From the NCBI RefSeq assembly GCF_017968845.1, contig NZ_CP072876.1, forward strand, positions 62,001-126,000: a stretch of DNA of 64,000 nt, in the 5' to 3' direction. This DNA is from Microbacterium sp. NIBRBAC000506063. Lineage in GTDB: Bacteria > Actinomycetota > Actinomycetes > Actinomycetales > Microbacteriaceae. Shown in pieces: positions 28,283 through 61,967 of this stretch; within the stretch, counting starts at the first letter, position 1; each line of letters begins with the position of its first letter. The position numbers and the translations under genes were made by a program. The notes under the pieces are model-generated. The model did no database searches and had not been told where the DNA came from. It was given only the letters and a program-made list of their open reading frames with translations.

Positions 28283-28362
28283 GCGGGAGTGGTGAAATTG
28301 GCAGACACGCAGGATTTAGGTTCCTGTGCCTTCGGGCGTGGGGTTCAAGTCCCCCTTCCGCA
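28283..28362 (+). tRNA. tRNA-Leu (anticodon UAG)
   Basis: The acceptor stem GCGGGAG pairs with CTTCCGC (one G-U). The D arm is GTGGTGAAATTGGCAGAC, the anticodon loop TTTAGGT has anticodon TAG, the variable arm TGCCTTCGGGCG marks a class II tRNA, and the T arm is GGGGTTCAAGTCCCC. The discriminator is A, as needed for Leu, and CCA is not encoded. The last 19 bases recur at 28496-28514. Confidence 0.95.
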
Positions 28363-28363
28363 C
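28345..28363 (+). repeat. tRNA-Leu 3' end, first copy of a 19-base direct repeat
   Basis: TCAAGTCCCCCTTCCGCAC spans the T loop to one base past the tRNA end. An identical copy lies 151 bases downstream at 28496-28514. Confidence 0.9.
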
Positions 28364-28514
28364 GAGGGACGAGGGGTCGGTCCGTAGGATCGGCCGCGTC
28401 GTCGCTCATCCGGACGGTTGGCCCTTGTACGCCTGGGCCCCACCGGCCAGAGGCTCCATGCGCCGCGCAGCGGCGGGTGGAGGGGCCGGAGGGACTCAAG
28501 TCCCCCTTCCGCAC
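28363..28514 (+). ncRNA. Candidate tRNA-linked RNA element ending in a copy of the tRNA-Leu 3' end
   Basis: A hairpin at 28368-28403 (15 pairs, one bulge, loop GTA) follows the tRNA. Then come CTGGGCCC (28433-28440), AGAGGCTCC (28449-28457) and the copied 19 bases of the tRNA (28496-28514). The same three blocks at the same spacing occur downstream of tRNA-fMet. The end can fold as a small acceptor/T-arm helix (GGGAC-TCAA-GTCCC, with GCGGGTG facing CTTCCGC). A processed RNA cotranscribed with the tRNA is one reading; an integration scar is the other. Confidence 0.4.
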
Positions 28515-60814: not shown

Positions 60815-61605
60815 TCAGCCCGGAACGACCTTGTACCGTCTCAGCCTGAGCGCCGGATTGACCTCCCGCACCCGCTCGATCACCGTCCGATCGAGCGCCG
60901 CGACCGCGATCCCCTCCTCGGTCCCCACCGAGGCGGTCTTCACGCCCTGCGGATCCACGACCATCGAGTGCCCCACTCCCACCGGGCCGGGTGATCGGCC
61001 GCGACCGCGTACACGGTGTTCTCGATCGCACGCGCGGTGAGCAGCGTCTCCCAGTGGTGCTCCTTGAGCGGACCGCGCACCCACTCGGCCGGCACGACGA
61101 GGACGTCGACGCCGGCATCCACGAGCGTCCGTGCCACCTCGGGGAAGCGCAGGTCGTAGCAGGTCATGAGCCCGATGCGGAGCCCGTCGAACTCGAACGT
61201 CTCGGGCGCGGTGAGCTCTCCCGGCTCCACCCAGTCCGACTCGGTCTGCCCGAAGGCGTCGTAGAGGTGCTGCTTGCGGTAGGAGGCGCGGATGCCGCTC
61301 GCATCGACGGCGACGACGGTGTTGCGCACGCGGCCGACCGCCGCCTCCTCGACGAGGCCGGCGACGATCGTCACGGAGTGCTCGGCGGCCAGCGCCTGCA
61401 GCGCCTGCGTGAACGGGCCGTCCACCGGCTCGGCGTTCTCGGCGAGCGTCTCGTCCATGGTCGCGACGAAGTAGCTGGAGTACTCGGGGAAGACCAGGAG
61501 CGTCGCCCCACGCGCGGCCGCCTCCGCGGTCAGTTCCGCGATGCGCGCACGGTTCTGGTCCCTCGAGGCGGTGGGCGCGAACTGGCAGACGGCGACGGTG
61601 GGCAT
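60815..61605 (-). CDS. Carbon-nitrogen hydrolase (nitrilase superfamily)
   Basis: About 263 residues. The catalytic triad is visible: Glu in LLVFPEYSSYF, Lys in YRKQHLYDAFG and Cys in GLMTCYDLRFPEVAR. The superfamily cleaves amides or nitriles; Nit1/Nit2-type omega-amidase activity is likely but unproven. Near an aminotransferase it could remove the keto-amide product. One break near 60988 (three C in the coding strand) restores HPAPVGVGHSMVVDPQG. Confidence 0.87.
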
Positions 61606-61618
61606 GGCACCATCCTGC

Positions 61619-61656
61619 CAACAAAAAGACCCGGCCTCATACGAGACCGGGTCTTT
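61619..61656 (-). terminator. Intrinsic terminator downstream of the tRNA-fMet unit
   Basis: AAAGACCCGGTCTC and its complement around GTAT form a 14-pair stem with one wobble on the minus strand, followed by TTTTTGTT. It closes the tRNA-fMet transcript after the second copy of the tRNA end, and may also serve the plus-strand side. Confidence 0.85.
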
Positions 61657-61662
61657 CCCTTG

Positions 61663-61818
61663 GTTGCGGGGCAGGATTTGAAGCACCACAGCGCCCTCCC
61701 CGTGTCGCTTCGCGCCACGCGGAGCCTCTCGGCGCTGCGGGCCCAGCATCCCCAAAGCGACACCCACGAGCCAAAAGGCGAAGGCCCGATCCTTGCGGAC
61801 CGGGCCTTCGCCTTTTCG
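61663..61818 (-). ncRNA. Candidate tRNA-linked RNA element ending in a copy of the tRNA-fMet 3' end
   Basis: Read on the minus strand: the 20-pair hairpin at 61773-61816, CTGGGCCC (61746-61739), AGAGGCTCC (61729-61721) and a copy of the tRNA-fMet 3' end (61682-61663). The copy differs from the tRNA only by one C in a C run, which may be a sequencing loss. The blocks match the element after tRNA-Leu in order and spacing: 46 bases from GGATC to CTGGGCCC, and 47 from AGAGGCTCC to the tRNA copy. A terminator follows at 61619. Confidence 0.42.
61773..61816 (-). terminator. Long hairpin directly after tRNA-fMet
   Basis: A 20-pair stem with one G-U, loop GCAA, bounded by AAAA and TTTT, starts five bases after the tRNA 3' end. 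It could stop transcription right after the tRNA or act as a processing or read-through signal for the element that follows. Confidence 0.75.
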
Positions 61819-61892
61819 TTGCGGGGGCAGGATTTGAACCTACGACCTCCGGGTTATGAGCCCGGCGAGCTACCGAACTGCTCCACCCCGCG
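61819..61892 (-). tRNA. tRNA-fMet (initiator, anticodon CAU)
   Basis: The minus strand begins CGCGGGGTGGAGCAGTTCGG. The anticodon arm is CGGGCTCATAACCCG with three G-C pairs beside the loop, and the first position C faces A at position 72; both are marks of the initiator. The T arm is GTAGGTTCAAATCCTGC. CCA is not encoded. Confidence 0.95.
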
Positions 61893-61967
61893 GCACAAGA
61901 ATTAACTCTAGCATGCGAAACGAGATGCAGCATCTCGGGGCCGCTCTCAGCCGAAGAAACCCCACTC

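Follow-up and report, generated by a model that had tools for sequence, protein, structure and literature searches.

On the minus strand of the window, by which we mean the whole 64,000-nt stretch of the Microbacterium sp. NIBRBAC000506063 genome analysed here, the 3′ end of the tRNA-fMet gene occurs a second time a short distance downstream, which raises the question of what kind of unit this is and how a tRNA gene came to be followed by a copy of its own end. The order of the elements is tRNA gene, first hairpin, linker, core hairpin, copied tRNA end and second hairpin (Table 1), and all coordinates of the original prediction proved correct when they were rechecked on the sequence. What had been described there as conserved blocks between the two copies turned out to be a single 61-nt bulged hairpin (hereafter, the core), composed of an outer stem, a 5′ bulge with GAGG, a CTCC/GGAG inner stem and a CGC-GAA-GCG tip.

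Table 1. Coordinates in the window of the two tRNA-linked units, behind tRNA-fMet and tRNA-Leu(TAG).
Feature	Position	Strand	Basis
tRNA-fMet gene (CAT), intact, CCA not encoded	61818..61892	-	tRNA search and sequence check
First hairpin, 20 pairs, immediately after the tRNA-fMet gene; terminator-like, few Ts after it	61773..61816	-	Fold
Linker between first hairpin and core	61745..61772	-	Sequence
Core, bulged palindromic hairpin	61684..61744	-	60.4 bits against R1 (a model to which this core contributed); fold z-score -3.85
Copy of tRNA-fMet from T loop to 3′ end, one C fewer	61663..61682	-	Sequence comparison
Second hairpin, ending in a T run; probably an intrinsic terminator	61620..61656	-	Fold; absent from consensus scan list
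tRNA-Leu(TAG), second family member in the window	28283..28363	+	tRNA search
Core hairpin behind tRNA-Leu(TAG)	28435..28495	+	72.7 bits (R1)
Copy of tRNA-Leu(TAG) from T loop to 3′ end	28496..28514	+	19/20 counting the preceding base

The 21-base tRNA-fMet end TTCAAATCCTGCCCCCGCAAC reappears as TTCAAATCCTG-CCCCGCAAC, minus one C, so that 20 of 21 positions agree with one gap. The best local alignment score of the copy was 36, and since none of 5000 first-order shuffles of the downstream stretch reached this value (best, 27), the recurrence that had been predicted is beyond chance. The copy continues with CA and thus reads AACCA. With regard to the two hairpins, the segment 61820-61770, which includes the first, folds at -42.8 kcal/mol, and this hairpin may stop most fMet transcripts. 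The predicted strong terminator after the copy was upheld insofar as the hairpin at 61656-61625 ends in T5 and the segment 61668-61620 folds at -28.4 kcal/mol; a consensus terminator scan of the minus strand, however, listed neither of the two hairpins. In the case of the second one, we read this absence as a consequence of the stem consuming part of the T run, and we consider it a likely intrinsic terminator.

Across the family described below, the core is 61-65 nt long (about 63 bp), and its GAGGCTCC, GGAG and tip are nearly invariant, GAGGCTCC also being a selection criterion for many of the loci. In 82 distinct rows, 98.3% of the cells were paired, and both-side changes were found at 11 of 17 pairs, with 108 both-side cells vs. 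23.6 in shuffles, figures that are flattered by the fitting of the alignment to the model. This covariation signal was destroyed by sliding the partner strand.

The same kind of element had also been claimed behind a tRNA-Leu gene of the window, and there too the tRNA, a core and an own-end copy were found in succession, at tRNA-Leu(TAG). In the window's genome (an assembly of 3.04 Mb, 76.8% complete, with 46 tRNA matches), R1 matched nine times: five matches lie behind intact tRNAs (Leu-TAG, Leu-CAA, fMet, Pro-CGG and Pro-TGG), another splits a second copy of tRNA-Leu(CAA), and the other three are at different places. Own-end copies, gaps allowed, were present in three of 44 tRNA contexts (fMet, Leu(TAG) and Leu(CAA)), which is an unbiased figure, and were absent behind the two Pro cores at the gapped threshold. 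The gapped scores of these three copies were 28, 35 and 38, vs. best scores of 18 in the control contexts from the phylum and from same-genus fMet loci.

Beyond this genome, 253 fetched loci yielded 106 distinct cores, of which 58 have a tRNA gene on the same strand within 330 nt upstream. The end of that very tRNA follows the core in 51 of the 58 (at least 13 of 17 nt after GTTC) and with all 17 nt in 44 of them, a proportion that is not a genome-wide rate because most loci were fetched by a match to the core or to tRNA plus core. This count was limited to cores that contain GAGGCTCC and GGAG and whose outer stem has at least five matching bases, and the scored stretch was preset to begin after GTTC. 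The mean score was 15.7 for the own tRNA vs. 9.9 for other isoacceptors, 12% of which also reached 13. The junction between core and copy is near-fixed: for 47 of the 51, the distance from the core's GGAG to the start of the copy is 12-16 nt, and the sequence to the left of this start is core and not tRNA, to within three bases. The succession of tRNA, core and own tRNA end recurs at tRNAs of 13 anticodon labels, Arg weakly, in agreement with the original view of an ordered unit rather than random decay. Where tRNA-Gly(TCC) varies between species, each copy shows the variant of its own tRNA (L194 and L228; L107 and L125; L241 and L246). End copies that are perfect although the linkers next to them have diverged are a hint of conversion or selection, and to that extent a point against the insertion origin favoured below. 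Most of the folds, made for one or two examples per label, showed a hairpin separating tRNA and core. Locus L221 (Protaetiibacter, tRNA-Leu TAA) lacks this first terminator: 37 nt separate the tRNA end from the GAGG of the core, and the end copy follows.

The distribution of the unit is patchy. Absence of the copy in close relatives had been named as a finding that would speak against the predicted unit, and the outcome is mixed: at the fMet loci of 21 same-genus genomes the own-end copy was indeed absent (0 of 22 tRNA contexts, gaps allowed), while other tRNAs widely carry members of the family. Given these contexts and a sole decayed relative in G034 (L032 / L077), the unit at fMet is almost restricted to the window's genome. 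In G034, tRNA-fMet is present as two genes in tandem, of which the second encodes its CCA, and a core with a decayed end copy comes after them. Elsewhere in the phylum, no own-end copy was found in 54 tRNA contexts (29 loci), gaps allowed. R1, with 68 candidates scored per genome, matched in 50 of 79 genomes of the genus (at most 46 matches per genome), and an order-wide scan gave matches in seven of 297 genomes, six within the genus and one in another genus of the family. A pattern derived from the tRNA-linked form of the core retrieved 42 stretches from named genomes, mostly of Microbacterium but also of Protaetiibacter, Pseudolysinimonas and a Curtobacterium MAG, together with three further stretches named only to family or phylum level. 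In phage and plasmid collections the core query was without match; five viral-contig stretches match a loose core pattern. The core was likewise not found by the test queries in the weak-match loci L078 and L079.

The core is not confined to tRNA genes. It lies within the PPK2 gene of G091 (L121:1501-1562), and 29 aligned relatives, including the window's genome, are without this insert of net about +60 nt. Further in-frame cores were found in genes identified by Pfam as coding for a P-type ATPase (L153:1217-1278, G088), a GH95 protein (L154, with the core also in L158) and SURF1 (L149). In L121, L153, L154 and L149, on which Pfam was run, the core is inserted in frame in four unrelated protein genes, with an empty site established for PPK2, and the core-bearing reading frames carry an inserted peptide of the type VPTxPPxAAxASSGASGRVGP(A). 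An apparent fifth case, an in-frame insertion in MurB recognized by eye (L150), obtained no support from Pfam. In G097 (L144, L145 and L147), some core hairpins contain further cores within their loops, as if hairpin loops were the target. Other settings were also observed: in L123, L132 and L133, a core lies between the apparent halves of another palindromic repeat, with CCTGAG(C/T)C to the left and TCGAAGG to the right, and in G026 (L070:508-567 and L071:531-589) it lies in a MITE-like element with inverted ends like CTAGGTCGTGTCTGATAATTCG.

A core inside a tRNA gene was found in the window's genome itself. On the minus strand of G000:C2, at 415554-415413, a copy of tRNA-Leu(CAA) agrees with the intact gene in its first 66 nt (66/66), up to the GGGTTC of the T loop; a core follows (415486-415426) and then CCCACCGCCGGCAC, the last 14 nt of the tRNA, with four T-loop bases (GAGT) either missing or within the insert. 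The intact tRNA-Leu(CAA) gene is the next one downstream (415336-415253). Ahead of it, a portion of the leader (TAAAGTCGATGCGG) is repeated, and behind it come a hairpin, a core that has diverged (415161-415101, 43.1 bits) and an end copy. ARAGORN labels the split copy as a tRNA with a wrong tail (L085:254-801 minus = G000:C2:415600-415053). By BLAST, this is the only one of the 106 cores with a whole tRNA 5′ part to its left; L221 was also matched, on account of the intact tRNA nearby. Tentatively, and as part of the joint reading for two phyla given at the end, the split gene beside its intact twin may represent a primary insertion product.

The tRNA-linked units are also repeated in tandem. 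Of 52 tRNA loci, 21 have a repeat of the terminator after the copy, and two or three distal copies are present in five, the others having one or a decayed one; these distal copies lie mostly 127-150 nt behind the tRNA. Alignment of the units revealed that terminator and linker are duplicated, often together with the beginning of the next core, which is broken off at varying points, and at least eight second units run into such a broken core (L061, L063, L075, L101, L105, L108, L218 and L222). At L239 (tRNA-Tyr), the native sequence CTGCGGGTTCGAACC after the second terminator is also present 7 nt to the left of the core, and of the native sequence behind that terminator, CTGGGGACTGCGGGTTCGAACC, the part GGGTTCGAA is that of the T loop; at L240 (tRNA-Met), CGCGGGT occupies the same roles. 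Both loci suggest an exchange between the T loop and a downstream T-loop-like site, with the core at the junction. In the tRNA-Gly CCC arrays of L122, L155 and L234, two unit types with different terminators succeed each other within one tandem array.

From the sequence comparisons, the unit is probably a tRNA-linked repeat (TLR) built on a mobile palindrome that enters tRNA T loops. This reading is supported by the tRNA-Leu(CAA) gene split in its T loop, the own-end copies with their near-fixed junction, the tandem units, the pairing of the core, and its dispersal, with nesting and the empty PPK2 site. The core, as a palindromic mobile hairpin, would insert into hairpin loops, including those of tRNA T arms, and such an insertion would persist only if one uninterrupted tRNA remained after a duplication. 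The core would thereby be linked to the T loop of an additional tRNA copy, full or partial, with the intact tRNA adjoining, and the resulting unit of tRNA end, terminator, linker and core would then grow and shrink as a tandem repeat, the last core decaying. Should transcription continue past the first hairpin, the product would be a trailer RNA that stops at the second terminator, as with RrB of E. coli.

Several extensions of this origin did not hold as general rules, a point against it. In units other than the split Leu(CAA), the 5′ half of the T stem is complete to the left of the core in 11 of 46 flanks, and it is not visible in the fMet unit. Re-pairing of the T arm around the core, assessed on 46 and 39 distinct flanks with a placeable core start, was matched by 1 of 2000 permutations in the identity test but by 84 of 1000 in the pairing-energy test, and is weak as a rule. 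Neither did the linkers contain a clear match to the 5′ part of the tRNA (200 shuffles per unit; smallest p 0.035, at L124; BLAST, 1 of 106). A reading of the core as scaffold and the tRNA end as guide of a guide RNA was dropped, as the guide would match its own intact tRNA.

The main rival to insertion into T loops is that the whole unit is selected for its RNA: transcripts would read through the first hairpin, the core would fold and the copied tRNA end would act as a 3′ processing or termination signal, as its authors propose for RrB (PMC8144298). The covariation of the core is strong and could equally reflect a selected RNA, the element is flanked by two hairpins, and the end copies are perfect in 44 of 58 cases; by analogy, the E. 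coli RrA, RrB and RrF described there are expressed TLRs between dual terminators. Against this, the same core and fold occur in frame in protein genes, nested within other cores and in the T loop of a tRNA, all settings that leave no room for a trailer function, and the unit is sporadic at any one tRNA, as the same-genus fMet loci illustrate. We regard a selected trailer RNA as rather improbable. Plain unequal recombination between tRNA repeats, with the core as a passenger, would account for the duplication of terminator and linker and for that of the tRNA-Leu(CAA) gene with part of its leader; yet of 42 tRNA contexts that have an ungapped end copy, 41 show a core in front of it (most of these loci having been retrieved through the core), and in the remaining one, L085, R1 still finds the diverged core at 43.1 bits. 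We consider this reading very unlikely.

The flanking of the insert by two copies of a tRNA 3′ end would also be expected of a scar, in which an integrative element used the tRNA end as its attachment site and was then lost, leaving two copies behind. Integrative elements often target tRNA ends. Here, however, one core family is combined with many different tRNA ends, each with its own, the distal copies mostly keep to the short spacing given above and form tandem arrays, and the one long insert examined (1.4 kb, L096) holds a broken ORF, an IS transposase by eye. We give such a scar as little probability as recombination with a passenger. L067 looks like the end of an island; L096, however, has a tRNA-Glu 1.4 kb upstream with the broken IS-like ORF in between (by eye). 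Finally, as a small bulged palindrome with many dispersed copies, the core resembles a REP moved by a Y1 (TnpA-REP) transposase. PF01797, the HUH family searched, was absent in 78 of the 79 genomes of the genus, including that of the window (76.8% complete), and G064, its single carrier, is without a core match; the same search matched in five of 14 control genomes. A REP/RAYT system is thus hardly credible as the source of the family.

Tandem repeats behind tRNA genes that end in the tRNA's own 3′ end are known from E. coli. The available parts of PMC8144298 describe 22 tRNA-linked repeats at ten loci, the last 18-19 bp of which equal the 3′ end of the upstream gene; they were first described in 1978, and no function was known before RrA, RrB and RrF. 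An account of their origin was not found in those parts or in the other literature consulted. For comparison, 13 chosen MG1655 stretches with 47 tRNAs were analysed. They contained 13 distinct end copies, of which three follow Tyr, six Lys, three Arg and one Pro tRNAs, together with a weaker copy (14/19) behind 5S. All 13 start in the T loop (position 58 or 59), directly after a shared hairpin-rich core. The insert has the 5′ half of the T arm on its left side in the units at Tyr (AAGGTTCG) and Pro (GGAGGTTCGA) and in one of those at Arg (GGAGG); in the Lys units this half is partial at best. In L254 (tyrV), L258 (arg cluster) and L266 (proK), the E. coli TLRs look as though a hairpin core had divided a T arm at its loop, a reading not found in the parts of PMC8144298 at hand.

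The Microbacterium units share with the E. coli TLRs (rtT RNA of tyrT/tyrV; RrA/RrB/RrF behind 5S) their position behind tRNA genes (in E. coli also 5S), the copying of the own 3′ end and the occurrence of one to several units per locus, and the fMet unit lies between two hairpins as RrB does between terminators. In terms of the features that describe TLRs, an end of 18-19 bp identical to the upstream gene is paralleled by the fMet copy with its one gap and by the 17/17 copies of the family; the one to five units per locus are paralleled by the one (or one decayed) to three distal copies at the 52 tRNA loci; and the copy starts in the T loop behind a common core, a feature taken from the E. 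coli stretches and, in Microbacterium, scored from a stretch preset after GTTC. The core sequences, in contrast, are unrelated at the limits used, and in Microbacterium the core is also found at places other than tRNA genes, protein genes among them, the comparison covering E. coli tRNA stretches. The Rfam family RtT (RF00391; >45 bits) had no match in the window at 61580-61920 up to E 5, or in L062, L063, L065, L075, L101 and L112 up to E 0.5, and in the same search the E. coli tyrV units scored 134-138 bits; conversely, R1 had no match in six E. coli stretches. With both searches negative, the Microbacterium unit works like a TLR and fits the descriptive class while standing outside the RtT family. 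Judged on these sequence features, it is a second TLR family, of the kind known from E. coli, in an unrelated bacterium, with homology undetected either way. Matches of the E. coli TLR core in a plasmid collection were set aside, the two that were opened lying beside csrA or nadA, i.e., the flanks of chromosomal E. coli TLR loci.

For its dispersal in coding sequences, the core is closest to the Rickettsia palindromic elements (RPE), small palindromes that are inserted in frame in unrelated protein genes (PMC10969869, in the parts available to us). This likeness is one of description, and the two differ in size (about 150 bp vs. about 63 bp for the core) and in phylum; a tRNA-end copy is not mentioned in those parts of PMC10969869. 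On palindromic repeats in Microbacterium or other actinobacteria, nothing on point was found in the literature, an absence that is weak, most subscription journals being outside the scope of the search. The double-hairpin elements of mitochondrial genomes are mobile hairpins that are said to insert into hairpins; they differ from the core in belonging to organelles and in sequence, and to our knowledge no tRNA-end copy is associated with them.

Taken together, a second, unrelated TLR family whose hairpin is dispersed in protein genes and lies inside a tRNA T loop makes the origin of TLRs testable, and points to the T loop of tRNAs as a potential recurrent target for small palindromic elements. 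As to annotation, VPTxPPxAAxASSGASGRVGP-type peptides in Microbacterium proteins are likely insertions. We put forward, as a tentative reading, that the TLRs of the two phyla might have arisen by the same kind of event, in which a palindromic hairpin enters a tRNA T loop and survives only if, through a duplication, an intact tRNA remains next to it. If so, TLRs would be footprints of loop-targeting hairpin mobility, in E. coli as in Microbacterium, and the Microbacterium family would be a system in which to catch it.
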